Shown: in pieces, positions 23,355-62,200 of the stretch
How positions within the stretch are numbered: position 1 is the stretch's first letter
Layout: each line of letters starts with the position of its first letter
NCBI GenBank assembly: GCA_900095095.1
Contig: FMBT01000303.1
Span: 124,001 to 188,000 of the forward strand
DNA from: Fragilariopsis cylindrus CCMP1102
Lineage: Eukaryota; Bacillariophyta; Bacillariophyceae; Bacillariales; Bacillariaceae
DNA: 64,000 nt
Direction of reading: 5' to 3'
Notes under the pieces: generated by a model
Database searches by the model: none
What the model was told of the DNA's origin: nothing
The model's input: the letters and a program-made list of their open reading frames with translations, nothing else
Position numbers and translations under genes: made by a program

Positions 23355-24949
23355 CTACTGTATTTGCTTGGATGGATGGATTTGGTGTACATCCGAATAA
23401 AAGCGTTTAGTTTTTGAAATGGAAACAAACCCATCTGTTGATGATGCTCTCAATTCCGCTTCGTAATCATCAGAAGGAGCTACATATGCATCCTCAGCTG
23501 GTAATTGAGTCCAAAAGTCAGAGTCATCTCGGAGATATGGGTGGATGTATTCTAACGGTGCCAATACAGACGCCCCTAATGAATGAGACCGAGCTGGACT
23601 CCAACCACGTTCGGGATCCATGTTCGACAAACAGTCCTTAAATGGCATCTCTAACGTCATAGAAAGGCAATTGAAGCGGGTTGCAATCTGGTTAGTTGCC
23701 ACATTCAAATATTTACTAGCATCTTCAGGTGAATTGGGAGGAGGATACCCTATCTTTTGTTGCATGTCGCTGTTGGATCGTTGATATGCTGCCACAAATG
23801 CACCATGGAGAGATTCCATCCGCTTCCCCCAGTTAGGAGTCTTTTCTGCTCCACTGATGAAGTTGAAGGGGAGCTCTTCGTCACCATGAACATCTAAGAA
23901 AAAATCAACACCCGTTTCATCCATTTTCTTTAACACCGAATGAACTTCGGGGCTTCGTTCCAATGTGGGGGCTTCATAGAAACGTTTAGTATACCACTCT
24001 CTATTAAGATTAGCCCCACAGGCATTAGTCCGAAGATGACCACGAACAGCACCATCGGGGCACATCAAAGGGACGATGTAAAATGTGTACATATCCGTCA
24101 ATTTTTGAACTTGATCATCAACAACTCCATCTGAATCCAAACCCAGAAGACGAGTTAGCAGTCCTTCCGCATAATACCCTGCCATTGTCTCGCCGGGGTG
24201 TTGTCTATGAATGATCCAGCAAACCGTCTTTCCTTTACCTACCGTGATACAGTCTATATCTCGTCCATCCAAGCTTTGTCCCAAAGAAGTCGTACTCGCG
24301 TATTGACCACAACGAGAGATCAAGCCAAGATGACGAGAATAGGAGTAAGGTGGAAAATAAGAGAAAAATACACTTCCGTTTTGAGCGTGTTCATGTTCCC
24401 AGCTAAGTTGCCCATCGGAATAAATTGTGTCTTGGTTTCGTCGCCAAGAATCACTATCTTCAACGTTGTGAGTGTAGCAAACAGTACTGCCTGACAGAGA
24501 GAAAACAATATGAAGATAATAATATTAGATGAATATTCAGCACTGCAAAAAGATAAATCTAAGAACGAAGTTACCATACTTCTTTCGAATAGAATGATAA
24601 TAGAAAGATAATTGAGAGACTTACCAATCCAAGCTTCGGGGTAAGAGCTTGCCTCAGCATTTGCAATAACATATCTAATCTTGTGTTTCTTATTTTGCGG
24701 AGGGAATCCTAATCCATTGACGGTTGCACGGAATGAAAAATATTGCATATGCCCAATTTTTTCTAATTCCGTATAGATATCGGGCTTGATGTGTAGTATA
24801 ACATCGGTCGTATTGATGGGGTCATTTTCGTTGGGCTGAGTAGTAATTCCCTTGATATTTCCGCCGTCGAATGTGTCGCTGATGCTTATTTTTATAGAGA
24901 CATCGGCTGATAGCGACGATTTTTCTTCCATTGATAATACTGGTTCCAT
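23355..24949 (-). CDS. M14 zinc carboxypeptidase, cytosolic carboxypeptidase (CCP/AGBL) type
   Basis: Two exons, 24949-24625 and 24490-23355, give 486 aa with an intact frame. An N-terminal beta domain (FPPQNKKHKIRYVIANAEAS, SYPEAW, FFSYFPPYSYSRH) precedes the peptidase, as in the CCP subfamily. Catalytic features are complete: HPGE (zinc ligands His206 and Glu209), substrate-binding Asn-Arg in NLNREW (Arg272), third zinc ligand in DVHGDEE (His310) and the general base in SMTLEMPF (Glu389). CCPs remove C-terminal or side-chain glutamates from tubulin and other proteins. The size is closer to short forms such as CCP6 or bacterial M14D enzymes than to large CCP1. The substrate here is inferred only. 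There is no signal peptide, so it is probably cytosolic. Confidence 0.92.
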
Positions 24950-46356: not shown

Positions 46357-47249
46357 TATAACTACAGTACAAACACAACAATATACAACCACAACTATAT
46401 ACATGCAAATCTGTCCTATTATGGGGAGGAATGAACAATCAAATCTAGTCCAAACAGTCCAAACAATCAAACGAACAGATCCGATCCAATCGATACTGTA
46501 CATACTGTATTTTATGCCATCACAACAACAAGCAACAAGTGCAGTACGTACAGTATCGATTCATTGTCTATAAACACACAGTAGTACTTATTAGTATAAA
46601 TATAGCATATATGATTCAATCGTAAATAGTTATTTGGATTTATTTTGTTGTATTGAGTATCGATCCATCATTATCTTTGTTTTTGATGCTCTCACTAACC
46701 CTCTATTTTGTGAGTAGAATTAAGGTTTTAGCATGTTAATTACCCGGACAAAATTCCTCACGATAGCGCGTGCGAATCATGCGTTGCACGGAGGAAGTAC
46801 TTGACGCGACACAAAAACCTCGCGCAGACACATTTTGACGGGCATGTAAGAATCTACCGATGTGATTTGCTTTTTGTACAGGCGAGGGTACGGAATTTGA
46901 AATTTTGTTAGTCGAATTAGTCTACCAGAAATTATCAAAAGAACACGAGAGAATAAACTGCTTGACTCACTCATCGAAACACTGTCATGATTCATTCGAT
47001 TCACATATTCACAGCTATCACTGCAACAAGAAACTAGACGAGAAAAACGAAGCAAAACACCTTTGATTACGGACATGCATACTACTAACTCTGACAAAAG
47101 AAAGAACTATCCAAAGAGATAACTTCAAAAAAGAATTTATTCAAGAAACCGTTGGAAAAGAGTTGTGCAGTTGATCATTTCTGGCTGGAGATCCCCTATT
47201 GAGTATATATTGAAAACACTACAGTGACCGACGTTCCGATTTTTTGAAT
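46357..47249. other. Intergenic region upstream of the m-AAA protease gene
   Basis: AT-rich. A minus-strand frame of 106 codons (46777-47097) lacks protein features and is not called. Confidence 0.5.
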
Positions 47250-50880
<3,631 letters not shown>

Positions 50881-52862: not shown

Positions 52863-55800
52863 ATGTCCAATAATGACTTCTACGCAAATGTGAAAGACGA
52901 CGTCTCTCGTTCGACTGTAGGGGAGGAACGTGTCGAGGTCAACCAAAGAGCCCTTATAGATAAGATCCTTGCACGGTATGCCTCGGCTGGAGCATGTTAT
53001 CGTGAATTGCTACAAAATTCTAACGACGCAAATGCAACTTGTGCTGAGATTTATTTTACTACGAATAGCAGCGATGGTAAAGAAATAGTCACGAATGTTA
53101 CTTACAGAAATAACGGAATGACATTCCGCCCCCAAGACTGGGCTAGGTTAAAGTCAATCGCAGAAGGTAATCCTGATGAATCAAAGATAGGTGCTTTTGG
53201 AGTAGGTGCATATACGATGTTTTCAATATGTGAAGAACCTATGGTCTTAGTGGTACACAGGCTTTGGCTTTTTTCTGGAAAGGTGACGCGTTGTGGACAA
53301 AGACAATTACTATGACCAACCGTCCTAAAGAGGATCAACCATGGACATCATTCGTGTTACCGTCAAGAGATCCGTATGTATTACCCTCACTGGTCGAATT
53401 CGGCGAATTTTTATGTGCTTCCTTGACATTCACAAAATGTTTAAGTGAAATTCGAGTCTACGTGAATCACAAACGTCGTCTCACGATAATAAAAACGCTT
53501 CTACAGGAACCGACGGTGGTACAAATAAATTCATCAAAGAATAAGAATAGTTGGTTCTCTTGGAACAGCAGCAGCAACAACAAGGGTGGGACTATCACAA
53601 CGTCACCGAGCGGGCTATTCGCATTGAAGGACGACCAGTCATTGTTGGAGTCGGTTTATCATGTTCAGGTTGATTTGGATGGTGACGTGGGTACAGTAAC
53701 AGCTCGATATTTATCGGGCTTAGCGACGACGAATGTCCCTGCTGATATGACTTCTCGTATGGAAAGAGTGACGAAAAAAAAACCGCCCTCAAAAATTGAA
53801 GTTCAAATATTTTTAAGTCATGATCAAACTATCGATTATAATGATGATGATGATGATGATGGTATTGGTATTGGCGAAGTCGACGAATCGAAGCGAAGAA
53901 ACTATCCGTCGTCATCGTCACAGAAGAAGAGACGAGAGAAACATCGGGCCGTTCGTCAAATCGTACAGTCTTTCTCACCTCGTATGGGCGAGGGGAGAAT
54001 ATTCATCGGTTTTCGTACCTCTCAAACAACAGGCTTGGCTGCACATTTATCAGCACCCTTCATACCGACAGTCGAACGAGAAGCAATGGATTTGCAAGAC
54101 CATACACTGCGAATTTTCAATCTTGAGCTCCTCGACTTTGCCGGTACGTGTTCTGTGTGTTTACCTCCTGTGTGTGCGTACGAATAAAAAATCTTACCCT
54201 CTATCTTTCTTTCCTTCTTTGAAATCGATACTAAAATACAACAGGTATCCTAATGCGATTGACTCTGGAACATAGTATGATAGAGCTAGGTCTTCAATTT
54301 GAAAAGGGAGCTCCTGAAAGAAAAGAAATCGAGACGAAACTCTTGCGAGAAGCAAAAGAAGGTGAACTTCAAAGAAAAAAGAAAAAAAATGATACTATAA
54401 GTAGTGAAGTTGATAACCAGCGAGATTTTGCACAGGTGGGTGATGATAAAGGTGGTACAGCTAATACAAACACGACGAATAATTTAGTAACAGGATCTAC
54501 GCTCTTTGGATTTGCTAAATTTATGGCCAAGGGAGTTAAAAAAACTATTAAGAACGTAGTCACTAACATCAGTGACATGGTTGATGATGGAGGCGAGCTC
54601 ATCTATCCTTTAGACCTAAGACCGCTTTGTGTTGAAGAACATCAATGCATCAAACTGATGCAGTCGTTTTGTCCTCGACAATCTACCCCAGACCCCATGG
54701 TGGGGACAGCACTTGCTCAAGGCTTTAGTCGTTGTATCCAAGACCGCGCACCACCGGTCCTAACTCGTAGTGGTGTTGTCCCTGGTGATAAAGGCCGACT
54801 TCCAAATAATGGAATGGAAGCTTTCGTTGATGAAGGTGTTATACGAAAAGTAGTATATCAGAACGCAGAAGAATATCACGATGTTATCGCAGCATGTAGA
54901 AAGTTGTCTTTAGACGATTTAACCCAAAAGCTCTCTAAAGATGTATTAGATGAAAGTAAACTTATACGTCTAATCAAGTGGTGGGTAAAATTTAGCAAAA
55001 TTCAATCCAACTTTTCGGCCGTCCAAGGCGCAGAGTTAAAGGATCAAGTTCGATTTTTTCTCGACAGGAGCAATCAAGAGAACAACGATGAAGCTTTGCC
55101 GGTCTATTATTTAAAAGATTTTCTGTTTTATCTTGACAAGAACAGAATACGCTCTGGGAGTGGGTGCATCATTGAAGATCTTCCTATGCCAGATTCCATT
55201 CTTCCGAAACAAATCCATGAAGAGGTTACGACTAGGGTTTTGTCGGACACAGCCTTAAATGGCTGGTTTTCGCCCCTACCCATTGAAATTTGGATAGACT
55301 TTGTTTCTCAGCATCCCTGTATGACTTCAGGGCAACCCGAATATGACAAAAAACGACTTCAAGTTCTTTCAACTCTTGGAAATGAGCATAGAAGCGTAAG
55401 TTTTGTGTTGTACTATTTGCCGCTATCACTTGTCATTGAAAATTGATGGACTGGGTCTGCCATGTACATAAAAATTATGGTATGATGTGGCAACTTGCAT
55501 CGGTATTAGCAATTACTCAATTCTTTTATATCAAACTTTACCTATTTTCTATTCCATTTATTTTCCAGCGGTCATTGAATGAGCAGCGGGTATTTGGTAA
55601 TTTTTGTCGAAATCTTCTTAAAGAAAAGCGATGTCTACCCTTTGATTCGATAGAACCCCTACCCTATGCTGCCGACTTACCTTCAAATCTTTACTTATAC
55701 TCGGCAGAATTGAATGCTTTTAGCAATATTGGAAACTTTCATAAAGTCTCAAAAAGTCTACAGCATATGGGTGTGAGTGACGACTTTCTCCTCTCACTGG

Positions 55801-58800
55801 GAGTTCGAAAATCTGTTGCAATTGAATTTTTGTTCGAGAATCTGCACACGCTTCGCTATCACAACGATCCGAAGCCTCTTGTAGAATACCTTCAATCAGC
55901 TTCTTTAACAAGCACTGACATTCAACAGCTAAGAAACACTCAGTATCTACCAGCGGAAAATGATGTGTCAAGAATGTTTGCTCCAGGGGAATTGTTCTTA
56001 CCTGACACAACATTTCGAATCTTTCCTTTCGTTCGAATAATGCAATGGCCCTCAGAGGATGACATAACAGAACGTTCGCCAAATGGAAAGTTTCTTTTAA
56101 CTCTTGGGATGAAACCATTGCCTGAACTGCTTCAGGTCTTAAGATATATTTCTGATGAAGTAACCGATGACGTCACGAGACTTTGTTGTCTAGATTTTGT
56201 TGCCAAGAGACTCGGCTCTGGAGGATCTTATGAGTTGCCTTACTCAAAGCTAGGACGTTCAGACAAATTGGGTCTAAAATTCTTGCCATGCAAGATCAAA
56301 TCTCCCTTAAGTGGTGTGGAGAAGCAAACGTGTTGTTCACTTCTCAATTGCTGCTCAAACAACTCAGCGGGTGTCATGGGATTTCCCATTTTAAGCATGT
56401 CAATGAAAGAAAGCAAGAATAAGATGTATGGTAATCTCTTCCAGTGTGTGGAAGAACCAAGCCCCACTGCTTTGCTTCAACAATTACAAGTTCTCGTATC
56501 TCTTGCAAAGAAAACCCTTGGAGCAGCAGCCGCAGGAAGTCATAGAGTGTCGTTTTCCCGTACCATAATTGCTACTTTCTCCGAGATCTTCAATTACATG
56601 TCTTGCAGAACATCGGAAATCGATGTATCCAGATTAAATAACGAAGAGTTCATTCCATGTCTTGTGAATGAAGAAATTAAATGGTTTCGACCAACTATGG
56701 TTTTCTTTAAGAACAAATCCTCTGATGACGAAATTGGAGATATAACTCAGTCTTTGTTTCATGTCGTGGACTTCAGCCCATTCCTGGCTGGCGCTGGAGT
56801 GAGACAAGATGCATCGACGAAGGATATATTCCGTAGAATGATTGATTCGCCTCAAACAGTGCTATCAGCAGTAAATGGTGAAGAAAATTACAGAGCTCTG
56901 TTACGACGCGTGGCTGCCAACCGACCGTTTAGGCGTGTTACTGATGAGATCCGCGACGCACCTTTCTTGCTAGCATACATTGTATCAGAGACGAAAAAAT
57001 CCAATGATAAGGTTACATTTGAATTAGCGAAAGCCGAAGACATTTTTGTAATTGACAATAGCTTTTTCGGGCGCATGTTTCCGGTGAAAAGAGCCCCGCA
57101 TGAGTCAGACCTCGAAGAGTTCTACGCCTTACTGGGTGCCAATTATATTTCCAAAGTCGTTCGGAAGAAGTTTGATGTAGTAGGTTCGTATCAACACAAA
57201 ACAGCCGTCACCGAAGCACTCACGGAAAGGATTTCAGAACGTGGTCCGCTCCTACTATCTTCAAGTAATACTTCACGGTCATTGGCTGATAATGCATCGT
57301 CGATTCTTGAGCAGAAAAACTTGGAAATCATACAGGCACCTGAGTTGAAAGCTATTTATTCACTCGACAAGTGTGTTCGTACCCAACAGTAAGTCGACAT
57401 TCCGTTGTTATCGATACTGATAGCTTGAATATCCGTATGATTTTGTCTTAGCTCAGAAAAAGCATTTACTGTTCATATTTTCTCAACTTTGTACCACAGG
57501 ACAACATGTTGTGTGCGACAAGGGATGTTCGGCAAAAACTCTTTAGTAGTGACATCGAATTTCGATTGGTTCGACGTGGGTTTTGCAATTGGTGAACTGA
57601 TTCTCAAGAGATGTCAATTGGAAGATGCTTTCTTAATCAGTAGTTTACTGGAAACACCACTCCAAAACTTACGAGACCGAGGTTTCCCCGTCGATAGAAT
57701 CATCAAGCCAAAGGCTCCTCCAGAAACAAAAACCGATTCTCCATTGTCTGAACCAATAACTATAGCAGCAAAGATATCTTCTGGTTCTAATTCGAGACCG
57801 GGTAATAATGATTCCGGCGTTACTTCGAATACTTCTGGCGATGAAATGAAACTAAATGAAAAAAAAGAGAATACGCCACAGTTGAATAGTACCGATGGTT
57901 GTAGCAAGAATGATCAAGTTCAAAAGGAACCACCTACATCCAAAGATGACCATATATCTATGTTGAAGCAGATGTATCCAGGTGTAGATGAGTCGTACCT
58001 TCGAGATAAGCTTGGGGATAATCCCAATCTTGACAAAGTCCGAAGTGTAGCTGAAGAGATGGCAACGAAAGGGTATCCAAAGATGAGGTTGTCACTCAAA
58101 AATCCGAAAATTTGAAGAAGAAAGAGGAGAAAAAATCTCCGTCAAAGCTTTTAGGTTCAAAGAAGTTAGGTAAAGCATTCAGTGGCTTGAAAAGTAGCAA
58201 CTTTGGTGGTATACCAAATCATTTAAAGTTGGGTCAGTCTGAAGAGATGATGTCTGGTCCATCGACAGGGAAAAATGATTCCGCAGCACCCAAAGACGAT
58301 GCAGAACTGCATACAAACATGGAACACATGCTTCAAAAGAGAGTTCAGAACGCAGCACGAAGCGTAGATTCTAATGGAATCAAATCCCCAGAAGTTTCTA
58401 TAAGTATCCCAGAAGGCCTTGATCATGGAAGTTCATGCGAAATAATTCCATCTCAAGACATAACGCCTTTCATTGGGACAAATGGAGAATCGGAATCTCA
58501 TAATTCGATCAAGATATTTTCCTATCGAAAAGACGAAGCATCCAATAATTATCTACGTGTGAATTTTGACGCAGTTGAATGTTTTGCGGTGGTCTTAGAA
58601 AGACTTTGTGTCGTGTTCGAGCTACCCAAACAAAGTGTCGCAATTTATCACCATCCCACTAGTAACGTTATTGCATTTAATTCTAGTGGAGCCTTGTATT
58701 TTAACATCAGATACTACTATCGAATTCATTATGCGAGGAATCTGCACAGGAAACGAGAATGTTACTCATATTGGTTCGTCGTTGCTTGTCATGAACTTGC

Positions 58801-58909
58801 ACACAATATGGAAGGCCCTCACAACAGAACTCATGCATTCTACACAGAAAGCTATACGTCTCTTTATTTGCCCAAGCTAATGGCGTTATTTGATCAAGTA
58901 GATGAATGA
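52863..58909 (+). CDS. HSP90-like ATPase (DUF3684 type) fused to CUE-like and WLM-like zinc-protease segments
   Basis: Exons 52863-54143, 54245-55395, 55569-57388 and 57500-58909 sum to 5,662 nt; two restored bases (near 53248 and 58082) make 1,887 aa. Near the N-terminus a GHKL ATPase is visible: RYASAGACYRELLQNSNDAN (N-box), YRNNGMTFRP (G1, with Asn where Asp is usual), and KIGAFGVGAYTMFSI (G2). The next part (FFWKGDALWTK, PWTSFVLPSRDPY, LVEFGEFLCASLTFTK) fits fungal and stramenopile DUF3684 proteins, which relate to sacsin. A middle region of about 1,000 residues has no known domain. About residues 1590-1640 look like a CUE ubiquitin-binding segment (MLKQMYPGVDESYLRDKL). The C-terminus carries HELAHNMEGPH (His1849, Glu1850, His1853, His1859), the WLM/Wss1-type zinc motif. 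Chaperone-like remodelling coupled to proteolysis is inferred, not shown. Confidence 0.88.
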
Positions 58910-59215: not shown

Positions 59216-62200
59216 TTAAATGATTTGACCGGTGAGCTCGACTCCATTCCATCCATCGCATTTTCCACAATGATTTCTACCGTCGAATTGCAAGATATCA
59301 GAATCCATTTCAGGAATGCAGAAAGTTTGGTATCCCTTTTGTCGTGAGTAATGACAAATATACACCATCTTTTCCTCGTCTCCGTTACAAGGGTAGTCTT
59401 CGTGAACGCAGTAAGGCGCATCATCGGAATCTTCGCTAAGTTCTCCTGCCGCCTTCATTTCTTCTGTCATAAAGCCTTGTTCGATATTGTCGTTACCCCC
59501 TGATTTATCCCCGATATTGTCTTCCAATCGACGGACATCATCGCACAGAATATCTGTCGAGCAAGGAATCTTATACACAAAAGAACAAGACCCTGGACCG
59601 ACTCCACATTTATTGCTGGAAGAAGAGTGTGTAATAATGTTATTGCTAACATAAACTTCAATGTCGGCAGTCTTCGTCTCGGGATCACATGCTGCCGCCA
59701 GGGTATTTGGGTACATATCACCAGATGACAATGAATTCAAGGACTGACACTGTTGGCCTGATCCGTCGCCTCTATCATAAGATAATTCAATATTCGACGA
59801 CGTCGGCCAGTTGTTTGTAAAGGAAAAGCGCACTTCGTTGTTGGTTCCAGTTTCGTCTAGTTCTTCAATCGTGAACGGTTGAGAAGAGTATTCGCACATA
59901 GAATCTCCACCTGTATCTTTATGCATTGCCATAATTCCTGCGTAACATTCTGGTTCCTCTGGAATGCATTCAGGCTCACAAGGAATCTGTACGTAGTATG
60001 CAACAAAGTCTAGATCTCCGTCAAGGGGGGCCCCGCAGGTATCACATTCATCAGCACTGGTTCCATCACTGCGAAGATATACGTTAACCGTAGCTTTCCC
60101 GGAGTGACAGATAGCCGTGTACTCAAACTTGGAGCCATATGTAGCTTCTTCGTCAGTATGGGCATCACAGTCCTGGGCTTCGGATTTCCCCTCGTAGTGG
60201 ATGGACCAATAGTTCGGTGTTTCTGTGCTAAGCTGTTGGCTGATAGTGAAAGTTACAGAATCACCTAGCTGTTCATTGATTGTGATAAGACTGGCGTCCC
60301 AAGAATAGTTGCCAACATCTCCGATCCCCTCTGCCAACTCAACAATGGGCATATAATCAACACACAATGACTGGAATTCAGGTAAGTTTTCAAGTTCGGT
60401 TGGTGTCGAAGCGCTCGGAGTTGAGATAAGTTCCCCAGTAGGAGTCAATGTTGGATTTCCTGTTTGAGTTTTTGTGGGAGCATCGGATGGGAGATCTACT
60501 GGAGGGATTAAATCCAATAATAGAGTAGGAGCTAAAGTTGGATCCGAAGTTTCACAGCTTGAAATACAAGGTAGTTCGAAGTAGATTGCAATATAACCCT
60601 CAACGTCGCCATCAGAAATACTGCATGCATCACATTGATCGACATCAAATTCATCTCCAATATACATGAAGACAGTAACAGATGAAAAGTTATCGGCGCA
60701 AGCTGCCGTATACTGCATGGACGCACCAGCAGTAACATTAAATCTCTGGTCGCAAATCAAGGATTGGTCCAATCCTCTGTAGCTAACAGCAACCATATCA
60801 AGGTTATCGAACGCATCAACATTAAACAAAACAGAATCCTTGTCCAAGCCCACAATAGTAATGATCTCGGATCCAATCATCACATCATCAGGCTTCGTTT
60901 CGCCGACAATGGCCTGTTCTACACAATCTATAGGAACAGCTGAGGGTGTCTCGCAAATTGGTTCGCACGGTATCTCAAAGACAATAGCAATGTATCCTTC
61001 AGTACCGTCACTTGGAAGGCTGCAGGCCTCGCAATCCTCTATGTCAAAATCATCTCCAATATAGAAAAAGACAGTCAATGATGCAAACTTTTCATAACAG
61101 GCAGCATCAATAGGGATTTTATCTCCTTTTATGATATTGAAGTCTTGGTAGCACTGTCTTTGATTGTTGATGATATCATCATATCCAATAGAAATCATGT
61201 CAAAATCATCTTCAACAAGGACCTCAAGTGAGATAGAATTAGAGTTCAGGTCAATGATGTTGATGATCTCAGACCCAATTGTAACATCATCTGGTTTTGT
61301 TTCAATAACATTTACTTCAACCTGTTCAACACAAGCAGTAGGAGCCGACGTGACAGGTGCCTCAGTAGGTTCAATGCTCTCGCAAATTGGTTCACAGGGA
61401 AGCTAAGTGTTTTAAGAACGAATGGAACGAAACAAATGATTAGAGAAAAGATAATTCAACTATATGTCCCTTCAAACAGAAAAAATAGAGAAGAAATGAA
61501 GAATCAAAAGTCAATAACTCTCTTACCTCGAGGTAGTATGCAACTACACTCTCATCATCACTATCTGGTGGTCTGCACTCTTCACATTCTTCAAGTGTCA
61601 ACTCATCATCAAAGTAAACAAAAATACCAACATCAGTCCAACCATCATAACATTCCAGGTCTTTTGTCAAAGTGTCTTCATACGAAAAGTCTGGGACAGC
61701 TTCACAGACACTTTCATGTGAGTTAGAATGGTAATGGATGAAAAATTTCAGGGTGGCATCTTCAGACCAAAGTTGAGAAATTTCTATATAAGTTAAAACA
61801 TAAAAGAAAGAGATGTGTTAGCATACAACTTTTAGTTATGATACAATCTTTGTTCAAAGAATGCCACAAATGCAAGAGAAGTGGGAGAGTTTGAGTTTAC
61901 TTACCAATAGTAACATTTGTATCTGCACCATTGATAATCTTGACTGCATCTTCAGGAATTGGTTCTTCAGATCCTATTTGGTTGATAATATCCTCTTCAG
62001 TGATACCATGCAAGTCATAACAATCAGTAGGTGCTGATGTGACAGGGGCTTTGGTGGGCTCTGGAGTCACTGGTGCTGCAGTTGGTTCAAGACTCTCGCA
62101 AATTGGTTCACAAGGTAGCTACAAGGGATTTCAGTTATTAAGAAAAACAAACACAGTGAATTATAAGTTTCTGATCAAATGGAGACAAAGACAATCAAAG

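Follow-up and report, generated by a model that had tools for sequence, protein, structure and literature searches.

A diatom DUF3684 gene with a sacsin-like ATPase domain and a putative minigluzincin-like metalloprotease domain

Introduction

Proteins of the family DUF3684 (PF12449) are described in Pfam as being of unknown function. A member of the family in the diatom Fragilariopsis cylindrus CCMP1102 raises the question of what an Hsp90-like ATPase and a zinc-protease motif might do in a single chain. Fungal DUF3684 members with similar C-termini exist. The window analysed here is the whole 64,000-nucleotide stretch of contig FMBT01000303.1 from position 124,001 to 188,000, with coordinates counted from its first letter. 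An earlier note on it had proposed one protein carrying a GHKL ATPase, a DUF3684 region, a CUE-like ubiquitin-binding segment and a protease motif like that of WLM/Wss1, and the three motifs that it quoted (ELLQNSNDAN, GAFGVGAYTMF and HELAHNMEGPH) are all present on the + strand between 52863 and 58909. We ask whether these parts belong to one gene, and what each of them can be taken to be.

Results

The region holds a single DUF3684 gene (52863-58909, + strand, as are all features below) with four exons, three GT-AG introns and ~1887 codons. Exon 1 (52863..54143) contains the ATPase domain, a middle-like region and the start of DUF3684, and is followed by the donor GTACGT at 54144. Intron 1 (54144..54244), exon 2 (54245..55395), intron 2 (55396..55568), exon 3 (55569..57388) and intron 3 (57389..57499) lead to exon 4 (57500..58909), whose stop codon is at 58907-58909. 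The frame is broken by a single base at two places, both absent from the earlier note: at 53247-53248, two bases between the codons for V128 and S130 within the ATPase domain, and in exon 4 at 58080-58081, between the CUE-like segment and the linker, ahead of the zinc-motif part. The sequence at these breaks is TT and AAA, respectively. Residues are numbered here with an X placed at each break; once one X is inserted, the alignment with sacsin passes the first break gap-free. What had been called one protein is upheld as a single gene, with the DUF3684 profile in order over three exons, but not as an unbroken frame.

Hidden introns were considered as a source of the breaks. Candidates were ranked on an ad hoc score, on which the accepted introns reach 7.3 (intron 1), 9.7 and 10.0. 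At the first break the two best frame-restoring GT-AG pairs score 7.7, above accepted intron 1, and were rejected because sacsin-aligned residues would be lost: 53153-53250 would excise the glycine motif, and 53202-53260 the sacsin-like stretch after it. The best frame-restoring pair at the second break scores 6.7, below all three accepted introns, and was likewise rejected. The breaks may stem from an error of assembly or from recent damage to the gene, and with two of them the gene copy in this assembly may or may not yield a full-length protein.

In the N-terminal part, the Pfam sacsin ATPase profile SACS matches at 39.1 bits (E 9.4e-10), over its cut-off of 32.8, and the PDB sacsin entries 5v47 and 5v44 match at 4.8e-9 and 7.9e-9; NCBIfam P_loop_sacsin (6.5e-13) is slightly below its cut-off, at 49 bits against 50, and HATPase_c_3 lies below its own (17.8 vs 25). 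These matches place a sacsin/Hsp90-like GHKL ATPase domain at residues 31-135 (52953..53266), and the GHKL assignment of the earlier note holds. The N-box catalytic Glu, the Asn and the Asp-Ala are retained together with the glycines (E48, N52, D55, A56, G110, G113, G115), and the Phe124 position is taken by Ala116. Hsp90 Asp79, of the DxGxG motif, is replaced by Asn83 (in RNNGMTF); Asn stands in place of Asp79 in all three sacsin repeats as described in PMC9880540. Farther on, Arg406 in IPTVEREAMDL (54077..54079) aligns with SVDRQSV of this genome's second sacsin-like protein and may correspond to the catalytic Arg of the Hsp90 middle domain, a role suggested by analogy with sacsin and Hsp90 as treated in PMC9880540.

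The body of the protein matches DUF3684 at E 6.5e-114 (382.3 bits, cut-off 27), which supports membership of that family. The match (53690..57257) spans exons 1-3 and covers profile positions 136-1097 of 1098 in order, as 136-261, then 303-518 and 594-1097.

Next comes a CUE-like segment (ISMLKQMYPG..., 57945..58079), in which the HMM match is confined to 57945-58007. Scanned alone, it matches Pfam CUE (PF02845) over profile positions 2-22 of 42 at 17.2 bits against a cut-off of 21.1; its E of 0.0042 is that of a segment picked for separate scanning after an earlier scan had matched at 0.029-0.12. None of four shuffles of the segment matches any family at E<=1. CUE domains are defined by an MFP motif and a C-terminal di-leucine. 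The segment has MYP (1576-1578), and its third helix-like stretch ends in AEEMA, with the C-terminal di-leucine absent. The CUE reading is therefore half-supported and weak: the first half of the profile matches, while the score is short of the cut-off and both defining motifs deviate. A Ser/Lys/Gly-rich linker follows (58082..58510), probably disordered to judge from the composition of residues 1476-1755 and from pLDDT under 50 in its last part. Two further matches in the Pfam scans, DUF3663 in the linker (0.0095) and a sub-threshold Hermes DBD (0.038 and 0.0063), were judged noise; such sub-threshold matches at E near 0.01 advise caution for the CUE and WLM matches likewise.

The C-terminal part (58511..58906) carries HELAHNMEGPH (58790..58822), which supplies candidate zinc ligands His1849, His1853 and His1859 and a candidate catalytic Glu1850. 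The window contains the pattern HELAHN..H..H..FY once, and 100 shuffles of the window contain none. A PDB sequence search with the C-terminal 275 residues returned nothing at E<=10. Nothing useful was matched by a first fold model of 175 residues (pLDDT 49): its best Foldseek hit was a prolyl-tRNA synthetase (E 0.044), and its VIA list had ribosome hibernation factors on top, while metallopeptidases, as identified by title, came only 27th and last among the 37 rows. A trimmed model (single-sequence AlphaFold, mean pLDDT 66, pTM 0.65) places HELAH on a helix (residues 81-101 of the model), whereas a motif lying off an active-site helix had been set in advance as the outcome to look for against a zincin. 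With weak scores, minigluzincins lead both lists of PDB matches to this model (jannalysin, abylysin, selecase), jannalysin and selecase being entries that we take to be members of that group. A zincin-like active site is thus favoured at modest confidence by the His spacing, the model helix and the leading matches, and the best reading of the domain is a putative minigluzincin-like metalloprotease.

The narrower proposal that the domain belongs to WLM fared less well. The spacing of H1849, E1850, H1853 and H1859 equals that of Wss1 115/116/119/125, the zinc ligands of Wss1 being His115, 119 and 125 (PMC5557861), and that part of the comparison stands. The WLM profile (PF08325), run on the segment alone, scores 17.2 bits against a cut-off of 26. 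When all but a 21-residue motif was shuffled, the score was 16.8-19.1 bits in four of four sequences; WLM membership is unsupported because the score comes from this motif alone and is unchanged when the rest is shuffled. Profile-profile comparison with A3, a profile of this genome's WLM proteins, yielded a 19-column match with a probability of 15.3% (E 0.0017); the figures for an FtsH M41 control were 4.5% and E 0.0089. A3 itself finds four PDB sequences at E<=0.01, all of them Wss1/WLM proteases, and so is a working WLM profile. In low-confidence models the order of fold elements is similar to WLM. No Wss1 or SprT entries are among the listed structural matches of the trimmed model, an absence that does not speak for a different fold.

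Relatives were sought in viral contigs and in genome contigs in which this genome was the sole eukaryote, a search that says nothing on fungi, oomycetes or diatoms. Protein queries against viral contigs gave pattern matches for the C-terminal part (20), the ATPase part (5) and exon 2 (2), none confirmed; the zinc core as protein gave 19 in genome contigs, again none confirmed. The zinc-motif DNA patterns matched no viral or genome contigs and the ATPase-signature DNA pattern no viral contigs; the ATPase-signature pattern and the genome-contig zinc-motif pattern were verified to match the window itself. The literature searched does not mention DUF3684, PF12449 or IPR022155, and among the matches listed no title or abstract start describes a fusion of such an ATPase with a zinc domain.

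Discussion

Read from the sequence, the chain opens with an Hsp90-like, nucleotide-binding GHKL domain and continues with the long body of DUF3684; a linker that includes the CUE-like segment then leads to the HExxHxxxxxH domain at the C-terminus. We consider it somewhat probable that the gene specifies a client-handling ATPase of the sacsin type that incorporates a putative minigluzincin-like metalloprotease. The ATPase would bind ATP at a site where Asn replaces Hsp90's Asp79, a mode already proposed for sacsin, and would open and close around a client that the DUF3684 body holds; the flexible linker would allow the C-terminal metalloprotease to cleave either this client or some attached partner. 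Steering to ubiquitinated clients, the weakest step, may fall to the CUE-like segment. The remodelling and cutting of ubiquitin-marked clients suggested in the earlier note is a reasonable hypothesis. For the architecture as read here, DNA-protein crosslink repair would be just one possible use.

Known systems resemble this architecture in parts. The SR domains of sacsin (PDB 5V44-5V47) share the GHKL domain, matched at 5-8e-9, with the same N-box and the same Asp79-to-Asn change, a change that sets both apart from Hsp90 proper. Sacsin, however, has three ATPase copies to the one found here and ends in DnaJ plus HEPN in the account of PMC3710099, whereas the studied gene has the DUF3684 region and ends in the zinc-motif domain. 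The minigluzincins abylysin and jannalysin, with selecase (4JIU, 4JIX, 4QHF-I), are the best structural matches of the predicted C-terminal domain, at weak E-values, but are chains of ~105-112 residues with no attached ATPase. Wss1/WLM proteins likewise combine in one chain a protease-like domain and, possibly, a ubiquitin-type binding segment; Wss1 partners with Cdc48, according to PMC4559962, while here an Hsp90-like ATPase forms part of the chain itself.

Several other explanations bear on whether the gene is what it appears to be. That it is a recent pseudogene, its architecture a relic in this genome, is rather doubtful: two one-base breaks in ~1887 codons, against none in the window's FtsH and M14 genes (two genes, read by eye), speak for it, but the remaining frame is open, exons 1-3 all score strongly against DUF3684, and at the TT and AAA of the two breaks the assembly could be wrong by one base. 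The second break also invites a division of the region, in which one gene, with DUF3684, would end at 58115 and another, with the zinc motif, would begin from ATG 58247; the first frame does meet a stop at 58113, and the ORF 58247-58909 has its own ATG. We regard this as very unlikely, for the frame of the zinc part is already open at 58055, ~64 codons upstream of that ATG, and reads there as the Ser/Lys-rich linker, and the gap from stop to ATG is just ~130 bases.

The remaining alternatives concern the C-terminal domain. Inactive zincin-like domains are known (PMC8195603), so the domain might be inactive, structural or self-trimming only and thus no general protease; the complete catalytic set of three His and Glu in this copy makes that unlikely. 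A Wss1/SPRTN-like repair enzyme cutting DNA-protein crosslinks, with the Hsp90-like ATPase in the role that Cdc48 plays for Wss1, would account for the shared spacing, for a HELAHN that recurs in a WLM protein and for the ubiquitin-binder-like segment, and the Ser/Lys-rich linker might bind DNA. It is nevertheless quite improbable: above the Pfam cut-off there are already four WLM matches in this genome, the similarity stops at the motif, two residues are inserted past the third His (HNRTHAFY vs HDNKFY), and the Pfam scan finds no DNA-binding domain at E<=1 except the Hermes DBD dismissed above. Highly improbable, finally, is a coincidental HELAHN in what is really an Hsp90-like C-terminal domain, given the result of the window shuffles and the minigluzincins that top both structural lists.

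A wider proposal would make DUF3684 proteins machines of the Hsp90 family that contain a zinc protease guided by ubiquitin, one chain remodelling and cutting its client as a eukaryotic, Hsp90-based counterpart to AAA+ proteases; we offer it tentatively and think it rather improbable as it stands. If the zinc site proves both active and conserved, a job that can be tested would emerge for a family catalogued without a known function, and an Hsp90-type ATPase and a protease would be joined in one chain; if it does not, the gene would stay an ordinary DUF3684 member carrying a suggestive motif.

Gene layout and frame breaks

The gene at 52863–58909 (+) comprises four exons and three GT-AG introns (101, 173 and 111 bases), and its product is filed as a DUF3684 member. 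The Pfam profile scores 382 bits in total and keeps its order across the exons (136–261 in exon 1, 303–518 in exon 2 and 594–1097 in exon 3), which supports the intron choices. The earlier note had described one open protein; instead, the frame shifts at 53247–53248, inside the ATPase domain, and at 58080–58081, upstream of the zinc part. Both breaks look alike, consistent with one missing base or two extra bases, and our translation carries one X at each.

Candidate introns were ranked on an ad hoc score scale, on which the accepted intron 1 scores 7.3. Frame-restoring GT-AG pairs are present at the first break and the two best (53202–53260 and 53153–53250) score 7.7; despite this, a hidden intron was rejected here because it would remove sacsin-aligned residues, including the glycine motif. 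With the single X, the sacsin alignment spans this break ungapped (PMVXSGTQ aligned to PSIFSGDQ). The best such pair at the second break scores 6.7. No comparable break was seen, reading by eye, in the window's FtsH-type protease gene (47244–50880, +; FtsH_ext, AAA and M41; several exons) or its cytosolic carboxypeptidase-like gene (23355–24949, −; M14 and its N-terminal domain). The breaks could reflect assembly error or recent damage.

The frame of the zinc part is open from 58055, its first ATG lies at 58247, and the ∼64 codons between form a Ser/Lys-rich linker; such an open, linker-like stretch upstream of the ATG suggests joint coding with the upstream part. Beyond the gene, at 59216–61198 (−), lies an ORF of 660 residues that has no Pfam match at E≤0.001; it contains stretches like PTLAPT and SDAPT, a type familiar from diatom proteins.

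Domains

The HSP90-like ATPase proposed earlier is borne out: the first 128 codons match Pfam SACS (40.6 bits when scanned alone), NCBIfam P_loop_sacsin (49 bits against a cut-off of 50) and crystallised sacsin domains (4.8e-9). Of the invariant residues tabulated in a sacsin/Hsp90 comparison (PMC9880540), E48, L49, N52, D55, A56, G110, G113 and G115 are present with their spacing kept, and Phe124 is replaced by Ala116. Hsp90 Asp79 corresponds to Asn83, an exchange identical to that in all three sacsin repeats. Because the same text terms ATP binding by sacsin itself debatable, we only infer ATP use. Arg406 (IPTVEREAMDL), which aligns with SVDRQSV of the genome's second sacsin-like protein, is a candidate middle-domain catalytic arginine.

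The CUE-like segment fared less clearly. An earlier scan had given CUE at E 0.029 to 0.12, and the segment was chosen after it; in the 60 residues upstream of the second break CUE is the sole Pfam match (E 0.0042), below cut-off (17.2 bits against 21.1) and confined to the first half of the profile. None of four shuffled controls, with the 60-residue stretch shifted by five residues, matched any family at E≤1. MYP stands at the place of CUE's MFP, and the di-leucine of CUE was not found in the segment. Since DUF3663 and Hermes DBD, judged noise, also match this protein at comparable E-values, CUE identity is a lead.

Related genes in the genome

The F. cylindrus genome (67.9 Mb, 818 contigs) yielded no second full copy with the C-terminal part or exon 3 as protein queries: the former found itself and one meaningless match (E 2.2), the latter itself and one fragment. 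This fragment is a second occurrence, on another contig, of 56406–56530 within exon 3 (C532:38600–38724; 125 bases, 98.4% identity), and could be either a short duplicated segment or a piece of the assembly.

Four WLM matches exceed the Pfam cut-off (L003–L006). L004 and L005, which resemble near-copies, share HEMAHC and carry long tails of low complexity; in L006 the motif reads HEITHT, with three additional residues ahead of the third His. Sacsin-type ATPases are represented by at least one more gene (L014:2949–9521, contig C462), an open frame of 2190 residues whose SACS score is over cut-off with neighbours and under it in a second scan (29.9 bits against 32.8). Across the 2073 residues covered by the scan, SACS was the only Pfam family to match at E≤0.01; several LPAWM(T/S) repeats lie close to the C-terminus.

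Proposed function

The order of parts, the ATPase motifs and the zinc motif can be read from the translation. Most likely the ATPase is of sacsin type and has a large body that would bind clients, and a small metalloprotease, attached through a flexible linker, would cut what this body holds; the ATP cycle, client binding, proteolysis and any guidance by ubiquitin are predicted steps. A role in DNA–protein crosslink repair appears very improbable, the likeness to Wss1 being confined to the motif; given the four WLM matches and the further sacsin-type gene, this gene is moreover not the genome's sole putative candidate for that role.

The reading proposed here would make the protein a variant of the sacsin-like type. 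No mention of DUF3684, PF12449 or IPR022155 was found in the freely available papers searched, and none of the matches listed in our searches concerns this fusion of ATPase and zinc-protease-like domain. Similar C-termini occur in fungal members of DUF3684; the layout of ATPase and zinc part is therefore probably family-wide, not special to the F. cylindrus genome.
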